From Olivibacter sitiensis DSM 17696 (lineage in GTDB: Bacteria > Bacteroidota > Bacteroidia > Sphingobacteriales > Sphingobacteriaceae): 50,695 nt of DNA. The stretch covers positions 1 through 50,695 of the forward strand of contig NZ_ATZA01000043.1 of assembly GCF_000427965.1 (NCBI RefSeq), given 5' to 3'. Position 1 is the stretch's first letter, and every line of letters begins with the position of its first letter. Position numbers and translations under genes: made by a program. The notes beneath the pieces were generated by a model. That model made no database searches and had not been told where the DNA came from. It worked only from the letters and a program-made list of their open reading frames with translations. Shown piece by piece: positions 9,237 to 20,264 of the stretch.

Positions 9237-12200
9237 ATGAAAACTATTATACTTCTAATTGCTTCCTTTACCATTTCCAGTTGTTTATATGCGCAGCAGC
9301 ATATCGTAGGCAAGATACTATCCTTTGGTGACAACTTGCCCATTGAGGGAGCCAGTGTCTCCCTGCAAGGAATAAACACAACCGTAATTACCAATGGCAA
9401 GGGAGAGTTTACCATCCAAACCACGGCAAATACGACTGTGTTGATTGTTAACCATGTAGGTTATGAATCAACTTCGATAACGGTTCAGCTTCCGCAAACT
9501 GACGCCTTAAATATTGTTCTCAACGCATCATCCCGATTGCTCGAAGAAGTACAAGTCGTATCCACAGGGTATCAAACAATACCCGCAGAGCGGGCAACAG
9601 GTTCATTTTCTACGGTAAGCAATGAACTGTTTAACCAACAGGTGGGTACGGACATCCTTTCCAGATTGCCAGCTATTGCAAATAGTATGGTCATGGACAA
9701 TGGTCGGGCGGGCGCTCCACAAATGATGGTACGTGGATTAAGTACAATAAGCGGCCCAAAAGACCCATTGATTGTGGTAGATAATTTTCCGTATGACGGT
9801 GATATTACCAATATAAACCCCAACATTGTAGAGAACATTACCATCCTCAAAGACGCATCCGCCTCCAGCATTTGGGGAGCAAGAGCGGCAAATGGGGTTA
9901 TCGTAATTACGACCAAAACGGGACGTTTTAATCAGCCGATTACGTTGGATTTTAACTCCAATGTTTCCATTGGAGCCAAACCCGACCTCGGCTATATTCG
10001 TCAAATGCCGTCAAGTGATTTTATTGATGTTGAACAGGAATTGTTTAACCGCAATTTTTACAACAGTCAAATCAATTCTGCAAACCGTCCGGTACTTAGT
10101 CCGGTGGTTGACCTTTTAAATAAGGTTCGCAATGGTGAATTAACCCAAGAGCAGGCACAGCAACAGATTAACCAATGGAGAACGGTGGATGCGAGAGACC
10201 AATTCAACCAATATATGTACACGCCATCGGTCAATCAACAGTATTTTATAAATGCGCAAGGCGGGGTAGAAAAGTTCTCATGGACATCTGCGTTGGGATA
10301 TGACCACAACAAAGATAATTTGGGCGCCACTTACCAACGGATTAATCTTCGTTTTCAGAACGCATACCATCCCAATAAACAGCTTTCCCTTACTACGAGC
10401 CTGTATTATACCCAAAGCCAAAATCAGTCAGGACGCTATGGGTATAACAACGTATTCATGAAAGGGTCAGGCATTTTTGTGCCTTATATGCAGATGGCGG
10501 ATGCCAACGGGAATGCCCTGCCCGTAGCAAGGGATTATAACCAAAGTTATATTGAAACGGCAGGTGATGGAATGTTACTCGATTGGAATTATTACCCCCT
10601 TACGGATTGGCAGCACCAAATATCAAATAGTAATGTTTCCGATATATTGGCAACCGCAGTCCTCGATTATCAAATCATAAAAGGCTTAAGTGCAACCGTA
10701 AATTATCAATACGAAAGACAATTGGGAACAAATACAGGTTTGGCAGACGAGAATAGTTACGTGGCAAGGGACTATATCAATCGTTTCTCTCAAATCGTAG
10801 ACGGGAATGTAGAGTTCATTGTTCCAAGAGGTGGCATATTGGATAAGTCCAACAATACACTGAATGCCAATAACCTGAGGGGACAATTGAATTTTGACCA
10901 TACTTATGATAAGCATAACATAACGGCCATAGCTGGAGCAGAAATGCGTTCCACTAATTCAAGCGGGCATCAGGAACGCTTCTACGGTTACAACCCGAAC
11001 AACCTGACTACCGGAAGCGTAGATTATACAAGGACTTACCTAAATTTCATTAGTGGGAGTGCCTTTATACAACGCAATCAATCTTTAAGCGAAACCGCGA
11101 CACGGTTTCTTTCCCAATTCGCCAACGCTGCCTATACCTTTGATAACAGGTATGTACTTTCGGCAAGCGCCCGCCGTGATGCCAGTAATCTTTTCGGCTT
11201 GAATACCAACGACCAATGGAACCCATTTTGGTCAGCAGGCTTTGCTTGGAAAGTATCAAACGAACAATTCTACGATGTTAATTTTCTACCATATCTCAAT
11301 CTTCGGGCAACTTATGGTTTCAGTGGCAATATAGACCCTGCTATGGTAGCCGTTAACACCATCTCTTATTATTCAAGCCCTTCTTTTTTAACAGGGAATA
11401 TGGTGGCGGGAATTAACAATTATTATAATCCAAGCCTAAAATGGGAAACCTCAAAGATGTTGAACCTAGCAATTGATTTTCGCACACAAAACGGCCGCAT
11501 TTCCGGCTCGATAGAATATTATCAAAAAAAGGGTGAAAACCTGTTTGGCGTGGCTCCAATTGACTACACAACCGGAGTAGATCCCGAAATATTAAGAAAT
11601 GTAGCGAGCATGAAAGGCAATGGTATGGATATAGAATTGAAAAGCCTGAACATAGAACGTACCATCAAATGGCAAACGATATTAAATTTTAGCTTTTACA
11701 AAGACCAGGTATTGGAATACCTAATTGGACGAACACTTGCAAGCCAATACATTGCCATAAATGACGTACCTATATCGGGTATCAAGGGCAGACCCGTCTA
11801 TGCTATCTACGCTTACAAATGGGCCGGATTAGACCCTAATACTGGAGAAGCACAGGGTTATCTGGATAGAGAAGTAAGCAAGGCCTATACCACGATAACG
11901 GGTGTCGGCACTCAAGTAGAAGACTTGGAGTATTTTGGCTCTGCTATCCCGACTCAATTTGGTTCGCTTATCAATGCAATATCTTACAAAAACATCAGTC
12001 TTCAGGTTGGTATTTCATTTAAGTTCGGCTATTGGTTCAGGCGCAGTTCCATTAACTATACCAACCTGTTTAACGGTTGGGTCGACCACTCGGATTACGC
12101 ACTTCGTTGGCAACAACCTGGAGACGAAACACATACCGATGTTCCGGTAAATCCATATACGACCAACTCACAGCGGGATGCCTTTTACAATGGTTCAAGC

Positions 12201-12437
12201 GTTTTGGTGGAAAAAGGCAACCATATCCGGCTTCAATATGTCAATCTCGCCTATGACCTGAATATGCCTAAAAGTTTTAAGGGAGGCATCAAAGGATTAC
12301 AGATATATTTCAATGCAAGTAACCTTGGTTTATTGTGGAGAGCTAATAAGCAAGATATTGACCCCGATTTCAATTTAGGCACTTACAATATCGTCACCCC
12401 AACGAATTATGCAATAGGTTTTAGAACAACATTTTAA
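9237..12437 (+). CDS. SusC/RagA-family TonB-linked outer membrane protein
   Basis: 1066 residues. A signal peptide (to about residue 20, LYAQ) is followed by a carboxypeptidase-regulatory-like beta domain (about 22-100, VGKILSFGDNLPIEGASVSL). Next come the plug domain (about 110-230, with ERATGSFSTV, GAPQMMVRGLSTISG and DASASSIWGARAANGVIVITTK) and a long beta-barrel ending in aromatic FRTTF, as outer membrane proteins do. It imports a ligand, usually a glycan or peptide, with energy from TonB/ExbBD. The SusD lipoprotein gene follows after 14 bp. The ERATGSF subtype is common beside TlpA-like genes in Sphingobacteria; no catabolic enzymes are nearby, so the substrate is unknown. Confidence 0.95.
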   Translation: MKTIILLIASFTISSCLYAQQHIVGKILSFGDNLPIEGASVSLQGINTTVITNGKGEFTIQTTANTTVLIVNHVGYESTSITVQLPQTDALNIVLNASSRLLEEVQVVSTGYQTIPAERATGSFSTVSNELFNQQVGTDILSRLPAIANSMVMDNGRAGAPQMMVRGLSTISGPKDPLIVVDNFPYDGDITNINPNIVENITILKDASASSIWGARAANGVIVITTKTGRFNQPITLDFNSNVSIGAKPDLGYIRQMPSSDFIDVEQELFNRNFYNSQINSANRPVLSPVVDLLNKVRNGELTQEQAQQQINQWRTVDARDQFNQYMYTPSVNQQYFINAQGGVEKFSWTSALGYDHNKDNLGATYQRINLRFQNAYHPNKQLSLTTSLYYTQSQNQSGRYGYNNVFMKGSGIFVPYMQMADANGNALPVARDYNQSYIETAGDGMLLDWNYYPLTDWQHQISNSNVSDILATAVLDYQIIKGLSATVNYQYERQLGTNTGLADENSYVARDYINRFSQIVDGNVEFIVPRGGILDKSNNTLNANNLRGQLNFDHTYDKHNITAIAGAEMRSTNSSGHQERFYGYNPNNLTTGSVDYTRTYLNFISGSAFIQRNQSLSETATRFLSQFANAAYTFDNRYVLSASARRDASNLFGLNTNDQWNPFWSAGFAWKVSNEQFYDVNFLPYLNLRATYGFSGNIDPAMVAVNTISYYSSPSFLTGNMVAGINNYYNPSLKWETSKMLNLAIDFRTQNGRISGSIEYYQKKGENLFGVAPIDYTTGVDPEILRNVASMKGNGMDIELKSLNIERTIKWQTILNFSFYKDQVLEYLIGRTLASQYIAINDVPISGIKGRPVYAIYAYKWAGLDPNTGEAQGYLDREVSKAYTTITGVGTQVEDLEYFGSAIPTQFGSLINAISYKNISLQVGISFKFGYWFRRSSINYTNLFNGWVDHSDYALRWQQPGDETHTDVPVNPYTTNSQRDAFYNGSSVLVEKGNHIRLQYVNLAYDLNMPKSFKGGIKGLQIYFNASNLGLLWRANKQDIDPDFNLGTYNIVTPTNYAIGFRTTF

Positions 12438-12451
12438 AAGACATAACAACA

Positions 12452-13825
12452 ATGAAAAGAAATATTCAAATAACAACCCTGTTGGTATTACTCTTAGTCC
12501 TGTTTTCAGGATGTGAAAAATTTCTCGAAGAAAAATCCGACAAAAGTCTTTCTGTTCCCACTACAGTTGAAGATTTCCAGTCCATGCTCTATAATTACGC
12601 ATACCTTAGTAATGATTTTGTTTCAGCCGGAGAGGTAAGTTCTGACGATTATTATCTTATGGATGCTGATTTTAACTCCTTAACCTATGAAAGTGACAGG
12701 AGACTGTACACATGGCAACCGGACTATGTAACGCGCCCATATTCTTCTGCTGGTGATGAATGGTATAATTGCTATCGAGCTATAAACACTTGTAACTCCA
12801 TTCTAAAAGGGCTTGAAGACAACAACCTGACCGGAGCCAAAGCGGATAATATAAAAGGACAGGCATTGGTCTTTAGAGCCGCCCGCTTTATGGATGGCGT
12901 ACAGGTATGGGCACCTGCTTATAATAGACAAACTGCCGATGCCGACTTAGGTATGGTATTGCGTTTAGACCCCGATATGAACATTCCGTCTATAAGGTCG
13001 TCTGTACAGCAGACCTATGATTTGATTATCAATGACTTAACACAAGCTATCCCACTTTTACCCAATGAACCATCGAACAAAGCGCTTCCCACAATAGCAG
13101 CAGCCCATGGATTATTGGCAAGAACTTATTTATACATGGGGGAGTATGGGAAAGCATCGCAGAATGCGCAGGATGCACTTCGATTTACCAATGCACAGGT
13201 AATAGACTTTAATGAATTAGAGCCAAATACTGATTTTCCAATACCTGCAACCAATTATGCTAGTGAGGAAATAATTTTATGGTCAACCTTATTGACTGCA
13301 CATCCTTTACGGCAGGCTATCGCGAGAATTGAACCAACGCTCTACAACCTGTATGCAGAAGGGGATTTGAGAAAAGTAATTTATTTTAGGCAAAATGCGG
13401 ACGATAGTTATTCTTTTAAAGGCACCCATGTCGGATATTTTGCCCTGATGAACAGCTTAACCCCTGCAGAAATGCTTTTGACAATTGCGGAATGTGATGC
13501 CCGCTTAGGAAATCTTTCTAATGCTTCCAAGGCGTTAAATCAGCTTATGATAAAACGACTGAAAATAAATGACTATACTCCCTATTCTTTTACTGATAAC
13601 CAGGAGGCATTGCAAATAATATTAGGAGAGCGTAGGAAAGAATTGGTCATGCGAGGATTGCGTTGGCCTGATATTAAACGCTTGAACAGGGATGGCCATG
13701 ATATTCCTCTTTCAAGAATGGTAAATGGCCAAACCATTACATTACCCCCAAATGATTTGCGATATGCCATTGCCATTTCGGAAAACGTAATCGAAATAGG
13801 TAGAATACAGCAAAATTCAAGATAA
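12452..13825 (+). CDS. SusD/RagB-family nutrient-binding lipoprotein
   Basis: 457 residues. The lipobox LFSGC puts the lipidated cysteine at 21. The helical SusD fold is suggested by WYNCYRAINTCNSIL, KGQALVFRAARFMDGVQVWAPAYN, a TPR-like middle (AAAHGLLARTYLYMGEYGKASQNAQDAL) and the C-terminal ILGERRKELVMRGLRWPDIKRLNRDG. The last is the classic closing motif of SusD proteins. It lies on the cell surface as the lid of the SusC transporter encoded just upstream. Together they form one transport complex. A terminator follows the stop. Confidence 0.95.
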   Translation: MKRNIQITTLLVLLLVLFSGCEKFLEEKSDKSLSVPTTVEDFQSMLYNYAYLSNDFVSAGEVSSDDYYLMDADFNSLTYESDRRLYTWQPDYVTRPYSSAGDEWYNCYRAINTCNSILKGLEDNNLTGAKADNIKGQALVFRAARFMDGVQVWAPAYNRQTADADLGMVLRLDPDMNIPSIRSSVQQTYDLIINDLTQAIPLLPNEPSNKALPTIAAAHGLLARTYLYMGEYGKASQNAQDALRFTNAQVIDFNELEPNTDFPIPATNYASEEIILWSTLLTAHPLRQAIARIEPTLYNLYAEGDLRKVIYFRQNADDSYSFKGTHVGYFALMNSLTPAEMLLTIAECDARLGNLSNASKALNQLMIKRLKINDYTPYSFTDNQEALQIILGERRKELVMRGLRWPDIKRLNRDGHDIPLSRMVNGQTITLPPNDLRYAIAISENVIEIGRIQQNSR

Positions 13826-13893: not shown

Positions 13894-14229
13894 TTAATCC
13901 CTCCTTGAATTGGGATTAATATTTAAAATTTGAGAGTTACTCATTCCCGATAAGTAAGTAGTAAGTTGGCTTTCATCGGTGGCATTAACAGTAATTTCGC
14001 AGGGCAAGTCCCCCGTTGGCCCGCACGTTGCTGAACCGCCTCCGAGTGCCCAATTAGTCGCATCGGAAAATACTCCAGGATTGGCATCACCTACATAATG
14101 CCATAGTGTGGCCACCTTAGCTTCTGTTTTCACTTCCTGTTTTTCTTTGTTCACTAATGTAAACGACATTACTATTCCCCCTATCAATAAGAGGACGAGT
14201 ACCAGTAATTTTGATTTGATTGTCTTCAT
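13894..14229 (-). CDS. Small secreted protein, DUF6520-like
   Basis: 111 residues. A signal peptide spans about 1-25 (MKTIKSKLLVLVLLLIGGIV). The mature part has aromatic WHYVGDA and FSDATNW and two cysteines in SATCGPTGDLPCEI. This arrangement resembles the small Bacteroidota DUF6520 proteins, which have a helical leader and a Cys-rich tail. Function is unknown; related genes come in small clusters and are sometimes paired with redox or export genes. It converges on the susD gene and has no operon partner. Confidence 0.6.
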   Translation of the reverse strand: MKTIKSKLLVLVLLLIGGIVMSFTLVNKEKQEVKTEAKVATLWHYVGDANPGVFSDATNWALGGGSATCGPTGDLPCEITVNATDESQLTTYLSGMSNSQILNINPNSRRD

Positions 14230-15605: not shown

Positions 15606-16202
15606 TTAAAACCTCTTGATGGCCCTAGCGATAGTACGGCGCGAGAGGTTGAGGTAGTCGGCATGCTCCTGCTGGGAGGTGAGCTGCCGCAGCTCTTTCA
15701 TGTATTCGTTCCGCAGAAAGGCTTTGTAGCGCTCCTCCCCATCGGCCAATAGGAACAAGGCCTCCTTGTGGCGGTACTGCTTCAGCCTTTTGTTTTCCAG
15801 CACGTGCACCAGCGTGCTGGCCTCCAGGCTGTGCTCCTTCAGCGCCCGCAGGGCGGGGACGGGCAGCGCCACCACGGTGCTGCGCCGCAGGGCCACTACC
15901 TCGCCATGCAACTGCCCGCGGGCATAGAGGTTGGGCCGCGTGGCCACATTGTGCCGGGGCGGCAGCAACAGCTCGATGCGGCGCCGTGCCTGCTCGTCCC
16001 ACCACTGCACGGCCAGCAGGCCCCGGCACACAAAGTAGAGCAGGTCCCGCTTGTCGCCGGGCTCAAAGAGTACCTTGCCCCGTCTCACCTCCAGCACCCG
16101 TGCCTGTTGCCCTAGCCACTGCACATGCCGTGCGCCCAGCCCGGGGCAGTACTGCCGCCAGTAGGAGAGGACTTGCTGTATGGGGCTTGTTTTTCGGGGC
16201 AT
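15606..16202 (-). CDS. Crp/Fnr-family transcriptional regulator
   Basis: 198 residues from MPRKTSPIQQ at 16202. The beta-roll cyclic-nucleotide-binding fold is visible (VLEVRRGKVLFEPGDKRDLLYFVCRGLLAV, about 35-65), then the dimer helix and a short C-terminal HTH (LTSQQEHADYLNLSRRTIARAIKRF). The phosphate-binding RxS signature of true cAMP receptors is not evident, so the ligand is unknown. Bacteroidota carry many such divergent Crp proteins. It is divergent from the peptide gene at 16523 across a 320-bp region with direct repeats, and may control it. Confidence 0.85.
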   Translation of the reverse strand: MPRKTSPIQQVLSYWRQYCPGLGARHVQWLGQQARVLEVRRGKVLFEPGDKRDLLYFVCRGLLAVQWWDEQARRRIELLLPPRHNVATRPNLYARGQLHGEVVALRRSTVVALPVPALRALKEHSLEASTLVHVLENKRLKQYRHKEALFLLADGEERYKAFLRNEYMKELRQLTSQQEHADYLNLSRRTIARAIKRF

Positions 16203-16522
16203 GGCCGATAGTAGTAAGTGAAACCGATCCTGGCCAAAAGAATGCGATAGCATCAAGGCTGTCAAGTGACAGGGGTGACATACCCGAAGCACCCACCGCA
16301 AAGCCCTTGCGGAAAAACGCGCTGGCAGGGGTACGGGCCAGGCTATGGGGGGGTGACATGCGGCATACGGAAATACAAAAATCCCGGAGACCGCCATTCA
16401 TATCACGGAGGCTGCCGTTTGTTCTTTTTTTTTCTTGCAAATGGCGGGCAGCTGCTAGATTTGGGACAAGATCTTCATTTTTTGGGTACCCAATTTTTGT
16501 TTTACTTAAATCTCTTAAAAAA
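16203..16522. promoter_or_regulatory. Divergent control region of the peptide locus
   Basis: Gene-free. It contains a 6-bp inverted repeat CTGTCA-AG-TGACAG (16259-16272), two direct copies of GGGTGACAT (about 16274 and 16350, 76 bp apart), and TAGATTTG (16456-16463), a TAnnTTTG -7 box about 60 bp before the peptide ATG. The repeats may be binding sites for the Crp-like or LytTR regulator. Confidence 0.45.
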
Positions 16523-16687
16523 ATGGAAAAGTTGACAAAAGCCCAAAAGGGCAAAAAAGAAATCAGCCAAATCATCAAAAAGGCCTCTCGTGGCACGGCC
16601 TATTCATTCGTACAGGTAGCATGGACCCTGGGCACCAAGCTGGCGCTCATTGGCAACTGCGACATCATACTGCCCGGTATTGGATAG
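16523..16687 (+). CDS. 54-residue peptide, possible signal or modified-peptide precursor
   Basis: ATG at 16523. The N-terminal half is charged (MEKLTKAQKGKKEISQIIKK), like a leader, and the C-terminal half is hydrophobic with one cysteine (C46 in LIGNCDIILPGIG) and a glycine/proline end. The gene has its own -7 box and is followed after 32 bp by an acyltransferase-fold gene, then a LytS-type kinase and a LytTR regulator. That order resembles peptide pheromone systems. Leader-plus-core design, a lone Cys and a possible lipid-transfer enzyme next door suggest a secreted, perhaps acylated peptide. No known precursor family is recognised. No transporter or peptidase for it is evident, unless the membrane protein at 14582 serves. 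Confidence 0.6.
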   Translation: MEKLTKAQKGKKEISQIIKKASRGTAYSFVQVAWTLGTKLALIGNCDIILPGIG

Positions 16688-16719
16688 CGCTTTTTTGCAA
16701 GGACCTAAAACGCAACAGC

Positions 16720-17757
16720 ATGACAGGACTGGATAGCTACAAAAAGCAGTACGAACAGCTGGCCCGGCACATGGAGGCGGGCCGGCCGCTACAGGAGGAA
16801 CAATGGCTCAACAGCTTCACCTTCTTCAGTGCCAATATACACCATTTTCTGCCGCTGCTTCCCTATGCGCAGCACTTGCCCATGTACGGTCGCCTCCGTT
16901 TTCACCAGTGGCTCAACGGGCTGGATGCCCAGTTCTTTGCAGATACCTACCCATTGGAGATAAAAGGATGGGAACCCTATGAGCGGCGCATAAGGCAGGA
17001 GCCCGGCATCATATGTACCTACCACTTCGGTGCCTACCAGCTCATAAACTACCTGCTGGTGAAGGCGCGCATACCCTACGTGCTGCTGGTGGGCGGCGAG
17101 GTGACGGCCCAGTGGCAACACCTGTACCCCACCCTGCAGGAGCAGCTGCGGGAGGCCGAGCGGGCCGGTCGCTTCCTGCTGCTGAACGCCAGCGAAAACA
17201 GGTCCCTGCGCCGGGTGAAGCAGCTGACGGAAGAGGGCTATCACCTGCTGCTCTACGTAGACGGCATGGAGGGGCTGGAAGGGCAAGGCTCCCTGGAGCA
17301 GCTGCCTTTTCTGGGCCAGCACATAGCCGTGCCACGCGGCGCCGCTCATCTGTCGCACTGGCTGCAGCGGCCGCTTTACCCCTTCGTGGCCCTGCGCCGG
17401 GGCTGGGCCGTGGAGCTCCTCGCCGCACCCGCCATCTGTCCGCCCCCCGGCATGGACAGGAGAGCCTACACCGGCGCTGCCATGGGCAAGCTGTACGACC
17501 TGCTGGTACCCTACCTGCTGCACTGGCCCGAGCAGTGGACAAACTGGCCCCAGCTGCACCGGCTGATGCGGGACGGCCCCCTCATCGGGGGCGAGCGCTG
17601 GTACAGCGCCACTGCAGAGGGCCTCACCGATGCCGCCACGCACGGCATATACCGCGTACGGGATGCCTGCTTTTTGCTGCGCAAGGCAGACTATCGCTCT
17701 TTCCGCCTTAGCAGGGCCGATTTTGACGCTCTTTACCAGGCCTGGTACACCTCGTGA
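16720..17757 (+). CDS. Acyltransferase-fold protein (LpxL/HtrB-like), atypical catalytic motif
   Basis: 345 residues from the ATG at 16720; AAGGA lies 16 bp upstream. The stretch GIICTYHFGAYQLINYLLVK (96-115) matches the first motif of lysophospholipid-type acyltransferases such as LpxL (HFGNWE, H-x4-E/D). Here it reads H102-F-G-A-Y-Q107, so the acidic partner is glutamine. Later segments RVKQLTEEGYHLLLYVDGMEG and PFLGQHIAVPRGAAHLSHWL correspond to the substrate region (D followed by a short loop, then P-G/R-G) of that family. No N-terminal membrane anchor is seen. LpxL enzymes add fatty acids to lipid A; its place directly after a 54-residue peptide gene suggests a peptide substrate instead. 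Low-activity or non-catalytic binding is also possible. Confidence 0.65.
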   Translation: MTGLDSYKKQYEQLARHMEAGRPLQEEQWLNSFTFFSANIHHFLPLLPYAQHLPMYGRLRFHQWLNGLDAQFFADTYPLEIKGWEPYERRIRQEPGIICTYHFGAYQLINYLLVKARIPYVLLVGGEVTAQWQHLYPTLQEQLREAERAGRFLLLNASENRSLRRVKQLTEEGYHLLLYVDGMEGLEGQGSLEQLPFLGQHIAVPRGAAHLSHWLQRPLYPFVALRRGWAVELLAAPAICPPPGMDRRAYTGAAMGKLYDLLVPYLLHWPEQWTNWPQLHRLMRDGPLIGGERWYSATAEGLTDAATHGIYRVRDACFLLRKADYRSFRLSRADFDALYQAWYTS

Positions 17758-17783
17758 GGGCATCATTGGGCATATTTTCGTAA

Positions 17784-17808
17784 CTTGGGGTTCATTAAGA
17801 ACCCCAAG
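17784..17808 (+). promoter_or_regulatory. 10-bp hairpin directly before the kinase start
   Basis: CTTGGGGTTC and its reverse complement flank a 5-nt loop and end 3 bp before the ATG at 17812. It could terminate the peptide-acyltransferase transcript or shield the kinase start. Confidence 0.5.
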
Positions 17809-17811
17809 CTT

Positions 17812-18861
17812 ATGCCTAAACGATTTTTTATCAGGGAAACCCTGAAGATACAGGCTGCCTTATGGCTATGTTTTCTCTTACTCATGACCTGGATGAACTA
17901 CCATCACTACCCACAGACAAGGCTATCGGCCCAGTTGCTGGTCTTGCTGCTGCTCATAGGGGCCTTCAACCTGTGCACGGTACCCATGTACCTGTTTTTC
18001 CTGAGCGCGCGTCCCTGGCTGGCACCACCGCTCGTGGGCATGCTCTTCTGGCCACTGGCACAGCTGGTCTTTGCCTGGATCTATAGGTGGATGCCCCGCA
18101 TGGGCCTATCCTTGGCAAGAAGCCCGCTGGACGTGCCCGACGCCGATTTCTACTGGCGCATGGCAAACCCCTACCTGATGGTACTGCTAGCTGCCGCGGC
18201 ACTGGTACTGCGCGTCAAATCCAAGATGAACGCCCTGCTGAAGGCGAAGGAAGAAAAGCTGAAACACGAACAGACATTGCTGGCCCGCGAGAGCGAGCTG
18301 GCCTTTCTGGCGGCACAGATAAATCCGCACTTCCTGTACAACGTGCTCACCAGCATACAACAGCAATGCCGCACGAAAATGCCGTCCGTAGCCTACATGC
18401 TGGAACGCCTGGCCGGGCTGCTGCGCTATAACGTATACCACGCAAGCAACCGCGTACGCAAGGTAGTGGTAGAAAAAGAGATAGACGCCCTGAAAAGGTA
18501 CCTGGAGCTGGAGAGTGCCCGTTTTGAGGCCTGCTACGCCAACCTTGCGATAAAGGGCGAGGCCTGCGGGCAGAAGCTCCCTCCGGGCCTGTTTATCACC
18601 TTGGTAGAGAACGCCTTCAAGTACGGCATCAGCCGAAATCCAGAAAAGCCCATAGACATTTGCCTGTACCTGTACGATGAGAAAATAGTGTTTCGGTGCA
18701 GCAACTGGATAGACCACGGCAGGCAAAGCACCTCATCCACCGGACTGGGGCTCAAAAACACGGCCTACCGCCTCGAAATGGTTTTTCCGGACAGGTATGA
18801 GCTGCAAGTGCACGACGGTCACCCAGATATATATCGCGTCTCGGTGACCATTTATCAATGA
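17812..18861 (+). CDS. LytS/YehU-type sensor histidine kinase
   Basis: 349 residues from MPKRFFIRET. Four predicted membrane helices (about 12-30, 38-66, 72-95, 118-135) are followed by a coiled linker. Then comes the His_kinase (PF06580) domain: AAQINPHFLYN with the phospho-acceptor H173, the N-box VENAFKYG (about 257-264) and the G-box STGLGLKN. It phosphorylates the adjacent LytTR regulator in answer to a membrane or periplasmic signal. Its lack of a large extracellular domain fits sensing a small hydrophobic ligand within the membrane, as AgrC-like receptors do. The response regulator gene follows after 40 bp. Confidence 0.92.
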   Translation: MPKRFFIRETLKIQAALWLCFLLLMTWMNYHHYPQTRLSAQLLVLLLLIGAFNLCTVPMYLFFLSARPWLAPPLVGMLFWPLAQLVFAWIYRWMPRMGLSLARSPLDVPDADFYWRMANPYLMVLLAAAALVLRVKSKMNALLKAKEEKLKHEQTLLARESELAFLAAQINPHFLYNVLTSIQQQCRTKMPSVAYMLERLAGLLRYNVYHASNRVRKVVVEKEIDALKRYLELESARFEACYANLAIKGEACGQKLPPGLFITLVENAFKYGISRNPEKPIDICLYLYDEKIVFRCSNWIDHGRQSTSSTGLGLKNTAYRLEMVFPDRYELQVHDGHPDIYRVSVTIYQ

Positions 18862-18901
18862 GTTATACAATCGATTTATTCTTTTAAGACCGAACAATAT
18901 T

Positions 18902-19696
18902 ATGGAAACAAGACACACACCCATCCCGCCGCTCAAATGCCTCGTGGTAGACGACGAGCAGCGCCCCATAGACCTGTTGTGCCACTACATAAGCCAACGG
19001 GCAGAGCTGTCGCTGGTAAACACCACCACAGACCCGCGCAAGGTACCCGCCATGGTGGAAGAATATGGCGTCACGCTGCTCTTTGCCGACCTGCAGATGG
19101 CGGGCTTGCACGGCATAGACCTCATCAGGTTGCTGGACAGCAAGGTACAGGTGATATGCTGCACGGCCTACGACCACTATGGCCCACAGCTCTATGAACT
19201 GGAGGTAGCCTACTACCTGCAAAAGCCCATAGCGCAGCAGGCATTTGACCGGGCGGTAGACCGGGCACTCACCCTGCGCGGCTATAGGCACTGGCGAGAG
19301 GGCCATTTCTCCCCGCTAGACGTAAACGAGGAGTGCAGCCTCCGCCTGCCCGGCAAAAAGAAATGGATAAGCCTGAAGCTGGTGGATATCGAATACGTGG
19401 AGGCAAAGGAGAAAATAGCACAGGTATGCTATACGGACGGCAAGGAGCTGGTAGACTACCCCATAGGCCAGCTGGAGCGCCTGCTGCCGGCCGCACACTT
19501 CGTGCGCGTGCACAAAAGCTTTATCGTATCCAAAAACCGCATCAAAAAGTACAACGTGGACAGCGGCATCACCCTGCGCGGCACCGCGGACAAGCCCCCG
19601 GTGGTGCCCGTGGGCAGGACCTATCACCACCAGGTGCAGGAGCTAATGGCGCAACGGGAACTAGAACGACTGAAACATGAAAAGGCAAACCATTAA
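18902..19696 (+). CDS. LytTR-family response regulator
   Basis: 264 residues. The receiver domain (about 11-130) has VVDDE at the acidic pocket and FADLQM with phospho-acceptor D63, then CCTAYDHYG and the conserved K in LQKPI. The LytTR DNA-binding domain (about 155-255) shows ISLKLVDIEYVEAKEKIAQVCYTDGKEL and FVRVHKSFIVSKNRIKKYN. It is the partner of the LytS-type kinase encoded just upstream and probably binds paired direct repeats. Its 3' end overlaps the next gene by 20 bp. The direct repeats before the peptide gene are possible targets. Confidence 0.93.
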   Translation: METRHTPIPPLKCLVVDDEQRPIDLLCHYISQRAELSLVNTTTDPRKVPAMVEEYGVTLLFADLQMAGLHGIDLIRLLDSKVQVICCTAYDHYGPQLYELEVAYYLQKPIAQQAFDRAVDRALTLRGYRHWREGHFSPLDVNEECSLRLPGKKKWISLKLVDIEYVEAKEKIAQVCYTDGKELVDYPIGQLERLLPAAHFVRVHKSFIVSKNRIKKYNVDSGITLRGTADKPPVVPVGRTYHHQVQELMAQRELERLKHEKANH

Positions 19697-20264
19697 CCAA
19701 TGCCTGCACCAGCTGTGGCAGATATGGCAGAAAGCCGAAAGCAGCGGAACCACCCCCGCAAGCTGCGCGCAGCTGCTAGATAGCCTGAACACCGATGCCT
19801 ACCGCCTCCTGGAGCGCCTGGATGCGCTGCGCCAACAGCAACTGCACGAGCTGCAGGGGCGTGCGCGCCTGCAACGGGCCATGGACGGATTGCCTCTGGA
19901 CGAGGAGGTATTTGCCCTCTTCTGCAAAGATCAGGTATCCTTCTACGGCCGGTGGCTAGCCCGGTTTGACAGCGAGTTCAGCGCGCAGGGAGCGCATTGT
20001 GCCTTGCAGCTATCTGCCCGCGAAATACTCCTCGTGCTGCGACTGGCAAAGGACCTGCAGCTGCTGGGCGACAGACCGTTGAAGCCCCTGCTGCAGTTTG
20101 TGAGCCTGCACCTGCGCACGCATAGGCAAGAGCCCCTCTCCTATGAGAGCTTGCGCAAGAAATATAGCCAGCTGGATGCCGAGACCTTAAGGCAGGTAAA
20201 GCAGTTGCTCATCAAAATGAACCAAAGGATAAATCACTATTTTGTTTTACTGTCCAATAAATGA
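19677..20264 (+). CDS. Unknown protein co-transcribed with the two-component system
   Basis: 195 residues. It starts inside the last codons of the LytTR gene (20-bp overlap), so translation is coupled. The protein is helical, rich in Leu, Gln and Arg, with no membrane segment or signal peptide. The middle (EEVFALFCKDQVSFYGRWLARFDSEF) and the end (LSYESLRKKYSQLDAETLRQVKQLLIKMNQRINHYF) recall the layout of RteC-like regulators from Bacteroidota mobile elements, but the likeness is weak. Context suggests an accessory part of the signalling locus. Confidence 0.65.
   Translation: MKRQTINQCLHQLWQIWQKAESSGTTPASCAQLLDSLNTDAYRLLERLDALRQQQLHELQGRARLQRAMDGLPLDEEVFALFCKDQVSFYGRWLARFDSEFSAQGAHCALQLSAREILLVLRLAKDLQLLGDRPLKPLLQFVSLHLRTHRQEPLSYESLRKKYSQLDAETLRQVKQLLIKMNQRINHYFVLLSNK

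Follow-up and report, generated by a model that had tools for sequence, protein, structure and literature searches.

A short open reading frame (ORF) with a single Cys, placed directly before an acyltransferase gene and a two-component pair, raises the question whether Olivibacter sitiensis DSM 17696 encodes a ribosomal peptide signal that is modified by a lipid-transfer enzyme. The locus was analysed in a stretch of 50,695 nt of contig NZ_ATZA01000043.1, called here the window. A sequence-only reading had proposed a run of a peptide ORF, an LpxL-like acyltransferase (AT), a four-helix LytS-type kinase, a LytTR regulator, and an overlapping ORF, and this layout was confirmed in that order, with all five ORFs intact (Table 1). 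An alternative start of the kinase is possible at an upstream TTG (17785), and the true start of the divergent Crp/cNMP-type regulator probably lies further in than that of its longest ORF. Upstream of the locus, the window also carries SusC/SusD-like genes (9237-13825, plus strand) and a gene for a small protein with two Cys and a weak match to DUF6520 (13894-14229, minus strand; E 3.9e-4, below the cut-off).

Table 1. Features of the peptide-AT locus in the window
Feature	Position	Strand	Evidence
Divergent Crp/cNMP-type regulator, longest ORF	15606..16397	-	PF00027 (1.4e-6)
Direct repeat, first half, candidate LytTR operator	16381..16398		14/18 identical to 16402-16419, lag 21
Direct repeat, second half	16402..16419		
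Promoter-like box TTG-N18-TAGATTTG	16435..16463	+	Pattern match
54-aa Cys peptide, candidate signal precursor, core NCDIILPGIG	16523..16687	+	ORF; place and Cys core kept in relatives
LpxL-fold acyltransferase-like protein (AT), 345 aa	16720..17757	+	
LytS-type histidine kinase, 4 predicted membrane segments	17812..18861	+	PF06580 (2.3e-21)
LytTR response regulator	18902..19696	+	PF04397 (3.8e-15), PF00072 (1.5e-11)
195-aa protein, predicted all-helical, overlapping ORF	19677..20264	+	Relatives downstream in 10 other loci

Searching 100 genomes, the own genome included, for the AT gave 22 matches in 10 genomes. Within the family, matches were found in 36 of 201 genomes and four of 25 genera, and within the phylum in 21 of 395 genomes, where most of the weak ones resemble ordinary LpxL-type proteins. 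A plasmid search gave no match. Thirty-three named loci, found with the pattern T-[FYM]-H-[TSV]-G-S-[YF]-R-[LM], come from Olivibacter, Parapedobacter, Sphingobacterium, Ferruginibacter, Terrimonas, bacterium A37T11, other Chitinophagaceae, and single MAGs labelled Bacteroidales, Flavobacteriaceae, and Bacteroidota. After merging, there were 56 distinct ATs, these being the loci with sequence available out of 68 matches of the family search. Downstream on the AT strand, a kinase is present in 52 of the 56 loci and a LytTR regulator in 49. The kinase of L052 is 3.4 kb from the AT, L061 and L079 are short contigs, and L111 is truncated. An insertion element seems to have disrupted some AT loci, because a gene pair that we take to be IS3-type transposase genes immediately precedes the truncated AT of L045 and another directly follows the kinase of L041, in which no regulator was found. 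Among the 37 loci with at least 5 kb of sequence before the peptide-AT set, 16 have SusD there on the same strand; a divergent Crp-type gene, in the window too, accompanies 22 of the 56 loci, many of which have little flank; the recurrent core is therefore peptide, AT, kinase, and regulator.

The expectation that a Cys-core peptide would be found beside the same AT in relatives was borne out in dozens of loci as regards position, Cys core, codon pattern, and the order of the genes, but not for sequence homology of the window peptide itself: matches at E≤1 were obtained in seven of 59 other genomes, the best at 0.15 and none convincing. Two loci with truncated AT starts were dropped from the motif counts, leaving 54 with an intact AT start. 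Of these, 50 encode a peptide that has a Cys close to its end, directly before the AT in 49 and before an intervening protease-like gene in one (L070). The 49 peptide ORFs are 27-63 aa long; they and their start codons were chosen by eye from the ORFs in the gap, and the L070 peptide was added from further upstream. Lys or Arg precedes the Cys in 35 of the 49 peptides and exactly five or six residues follow it in 39, as in the cores KCDFVIL, KCDIEIL, KCPFEIF, and KCNIVFPF. A related form, [SC]-C with 9-15 further residues, was seen in Chitinophagaceae and one Bacteroidota MAG. The charged front and hydrophobic back noticed earlier in the window peptide did not prove to be a family trait; what the peptides share is the C-terminal Cys core after a variable stretch. 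No convincing peptide was recognized at the AT loci L099 and L105, and the peptides of L074 and L079 are longer Cys peptides in loci without LytS/LytTR in the available sequence. In Olivibacter jilunii, five such loci encode four different cores.

The strict C-terminal motif, which was defined after inspection of the data with later-fetched loci used as a test, occurs at 35 of 54 AT loci versus three of 513 control upstream regions, a mean of 0.58 of 54 loci after shuffling, and none of 54 reverse strands. A looser motif was found at 40 of 54 loci, in 33 of 513 controls, and on six of 54 reverse strands. The neutral form of the motif was present at 15 of 20 loci of the discovery genomes, in 40 of 3939 tiles of the same loci, and at 19 of 34 later-fetched loci, these 19 hits not being independent, as they include seven close Sphingobacterium relatives and orthologues of earlier loci. 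A kinase adjoins 47 of the peptide loci; grouped at 50% AT identity, these form 32 clusters, 23 of which have the [KR]C+5/6 form.

A noncoding substitution pattern, which would speak against the peptide, was not the rule in relatives. Synonymous codon changes outnumber nonsynonymous ones in 10 of 13 equal-length peptide pairs (L083/L078 15:4, L081/L075 9:2, L073/L080 11:2, and L047/L101 12:7, among others), so the frame is taken as coding in relatives, but three pairs have a nonsynonymous excess (synonymous to nonsynonymous 8:17 in L062/L061, 8:14 in L041/L069, and 11:12 in L066/L069). The pair L041/L067 was left out of this count due to unequal lengths. For the window peptide, the coding assignment rests on its place, its Cys, and its intact frame. 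Its Cys is preceded by Asn and followed by eight residues (DIILPGIG), where the common form is [KR]C+5/6, and it is an atypical member of the family; the nearest AT relative of the window, L053 from Parapedobacter luteus, has the core CDIFII, close to CDIIL of the window.

The LpxL/LpxM fold, that of lipid A and mannoside acyltransferases, was confirmed for the AT, and the fold named in the sequence-only reading was thus correct. The model PF03279 (Lip_A_acyltrans) matches 27 of 32 AT members at E≤0.1 (best 1.7e-7), and the window AT had no match at E≤1. Invariant in the 32 aligned ATs are T100, H102, G104, A157, Y179, D181, G182, G185, G207, W273, and W276, the conservation of the His block being partly built in because the search pattern demands it. 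Arg is found at position +5 from the His in 31 of 32 aligned ATs, again partly due to the pattern. Among 20 ATs spanning the block and chosen without the pattern, this position is non-acidic, with Gln in the window. The form H[FY]G[NS]WE was read in nine of 13 phylum hits with a readable frame, no AT frame being obtained by script for seven of the 20 phylum-hit loci; L147 and L148 were examined further. The HX4E acid of LpxL homologues is not at that place in the AT, so its activity is not assured; the invariant Asp181 may substitute for the Glu. With its outlier motif HFGAYQ, the window AT is a divergent family member. Both outlying motifs, HFGAYQ and the Cys with eight residues, would also be expected if the window copy had decayed to a degenerate peptide and AT while its relatives are functional, but five intact ORFs and an operator-like repeat make such decay quite improbable.

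More distant AT relatives are found in clusters of RiPP type. In L167, the AT accompanies a radical-SAM/SPASM protein, a Cys precursor of 47 aa, and a protein whose match to the daptide M50 protease model falls below the cut-off. L168 encodes a radical-SAM/SPASM protein, three tandem Cys-Cys precursors, the AT, and an M50-like protein similar to that of L167. L170 encodes two identical 50-aa Cys-Cys peptides and the AT, along with a divergent LytTR-domain protein whose N-terminal part is hydrophobic and a response regulator of LuxR type. In both L169 and L170, the Cys peptide and AT adjoin a divergent LytTR-domain protein and a LuxR-type regulator in place of LytS/LytTR, possibly as a second sensing arrangement; for L169, this was judged by likeness only. 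Within the kinase-linked group, L070 has the run peptide, protease-like gene (M50 model match below the cut-off), AT, LytS, and LytTR. By their gene context, the AT relatives outside the kinase-linked group point to peptides as substrates. A precursor gene beside a modifier-type enzyme, a RiPP-like arrangement, is present, and we infer that the peptide is modified.

Upstream of the peptides, direct-repeat matches (at least eight of nine bases) peak at lags of 20 and 21, with nine and 16 of 49 loci, respectively, whereas any other lag between 12 and 44 gives zero to four loci. All lags were inspected first and the test was then repeated on non-redundant loci, where 19 of 40 upstream regions have repeats at lag 20/21 (average 1.9 and maximum 8 in 300 shuffles) and the other lag pairs listed occur in five or fewer of 40. 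The window repeat is placed just upstream of the promoter-like box, and it was matched or beaten at lag 20/21 by two of 2000 shuffles. Since the repeats bound by LytTR proteins are spaced by about 21 bp, the simple interpretation is autoregulation. The promoter of its own that had been ascribed to the peptide is borne out in the window as a pattern match to the Bacteroidota promoter consensus, but it is no family feature, since the pattern is present in one of 49 leaders.

Scanning the window locus against Rfam gave only matches below every gathering score; no match at E≤0.5 was found in 14 other loci, and one of seven further loci matched DUF805b. This RNA (RF02914) is located just upstream of the peptides in the loci L067 (9673-9707), L050, L041, L066, and L069, and also upstream of other small-peptide genes (L121, L126, and L139), some of which we take to code for peptides with double-glycine leaders. 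The literature search found no papers on DUF805b. A pseudoknot in the leaders was unconvincing, as 28% of shuffles reach the real median. A known cis-regulatory RNA family matching before some peptide ORFs, together with the lipid A and mannoside acyltransferase fold of the AT, would fit an enzyme that acts on lipid and a small ORF that serves as a regulatory leader, of which the translation matters and not the product. This is highly improbable against the recurrent Cys core, the synonymous substitution pattern, the tandem precursor copies beside AT relatives, and the missing lipid-type HX4E acid.

The assignments of a LytS-type kinase and a LytTR regulator hold with the Pfam matches of Table 1. 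The phospho-acceptor His is present in all 47 aligned kinases. The pair has the make-up of a LytS/LytTR two-component system, with this His in the kinase and receiver and LytTR domains in the regulator, and the kinase is without an outside domain. For the overlapping ORF, the predicted all-helical model has a low pTM of 0.47 and no Pfam family was found above its cut-off. Its relatives at the same place in the ten other loci have about 190-210 or 390-405 aa, and the shorter ones share a stretch S[YF]ES[LI][RK]K[KR]Y near the end.

Pairwise similarity of the cores correlates better with the membrane half of the kinase (0.377) than with the kinase half (0.245). After correction for the latter, the partial correlation of core and sensor half is 0.352 (p 0.001), and the reverse is -0.20. 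The correlation vanishes when AT similarity is removed (0.047, p 0.28, not significant), because AT and sensor vary together; core and AT similarity given the sensor are weakly correlated (0.154, p 0.014). Core, enzyme, and sensor vary together, as cognate sets are expected to and as shared descent likewise produces.

The same modified peptide could be an acylated, bacteriocin-like antimicrobial, whose production or self-protection is regulated by the two-component pair and which is itself sensed secondarily, as with nisin. Such a role agrees with the distant ATs in clusters of RiPP type, one of which has three precursor copies, and with DUF805b preceding both some AT-locus peptides and small peptides that resemble double-glycine-leader peptides. 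It is nevertheless unlikely, as no other modelled partner is as constant as the kinase and regulator, the core tracks the sensor half, and no recurring exporter gene was seen in an informal look at the neighbourhoods listed. Similarly doubtful is a peptide kept in the envelope of its producer as a cis-acting cue, for example of acyl supply or membrane state, with no cell-to-cell signal. The kinase without an outside domain and the own genome without a C39 peptidase match fit such a cue, and lipidation would favour membrane retention, but several different cores per genome and the core-sensor tracking better fit specificity between strains.

The preferred reading remains a self-made and self-sensed peptide with an LpxL-like peptide acyltransferase, and this full autoinduction model is given a probability of about 0.5; greater confidence is placed in the narrower statement that the AT acts on a ribosomal Cys peptide. 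In the autoinduction model, the 54-aa precursor would be translated together with the LpxL-fold AT and probably altered by it, the likeliest change being a fatty acyl group added to the Cys core or close to it. The four-helix kinase would sense the lipophilic product within or at the membrane and phosphorylate the LytTR regulator, as LytS-type kinases do. The regulator would then bind the 21-bp-spaced repeats upstream of the peptide promoter and raise its own operon, and possibly also the neighbouring SusC/SusD and Crp genes. Such working would resemble the autoinduction of Agr or ComQXPA, but the place of AgrB or ComQ would be taken by an acyltransferase fold of lipid-A type. Acylation, secretion, and sensing are what we infer from this arrangement. 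The signalling or modified-peptide role first proposed is partly supported, by peptide place, Cys core, codon pattern, gene order, and AT fold, but not by homology of the window peptide. Counted against the autoinduction model are the displaced HX4E acid, the loci without a convincing peptide, the longer Cys peptides of L074 and L079, the nonsynonymous-rich pairs, the loss of the core-sensor correlation when AT similarity is removed, the non-independence of the later loci, and the atypical window peptide. Maturation and export are not accounted for by it, because the own genome has no match at E≤0.001 to AgrB (PF04647), the C39 peptidase, or the daptide-type M50 model; AgrB was also not found among the neighbouring proteins scanned.

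Like Agr (AgrBDCA), the locus has a small Cys peptide, a membrane kinase, and a LytTR regulator in one run, and several AT-locus cores (CDF/CDI) look to us like AIP cores. In AgrD, the Cys core is followed by a charged C-terminal tail, whereas most AT-locus peptides have none, 39 of 49 ending five or six residues past the Cys. Also unlike Agr, the window genome gave no AgrB match, and the modifier has an LpxL fold, which would offer no evident means of thiolactone formation. ComQXPA likewise consists of a lipid-adding enzyme, a precursor, a membrane kinase, and a regulator, but the AT-locus modifier is of LpxL fold and no prenyltransferase, the regulator is of LytTR type, and the shared core residue is Cys, not the Trp of ComQXPA. 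From LpxL, LpxM, and PatA acyltransferases, the AT differs in the HX4E acid not in place and in its neighbour, a peptide gene. Selidamides and nostolysamides are ribosomal peptides with fatty acyl groups, added to Lys or (hydroxy)ornithine by acyltransferases of GNAT type (PMC13060382, PMC9505594). DAG-RiPPs of Bacteroidota are lipidated ribosomal Cys peptides that receive the lipid via the lipoprotein pathway (PMC12636315). In the open-licence literature, screened by titles and abstract starts, no account was found of a peptide autoinducer system built in this way in Bacteroidota.

These loci probably represent a type of bacterial peptide signal that had not been recognised before. That they form an undescribed and widespread class of Gram-negative pheromones, with short Cys-core peptides acylated by a new peptide-specific LpxL branch, LytS/LytTR sensing, autoinduction through 21-bp repeats, and up to five parallel channels per cell, is a tentative claim that we place somewhat below even odds. 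If true, Bacteroidota would gain a peptide signalling system, an LpxL-type enzyme would join the known routes of ribosomal peptide lipidation, and about 50 natural variants with defined cores would make its specificity directly testable.
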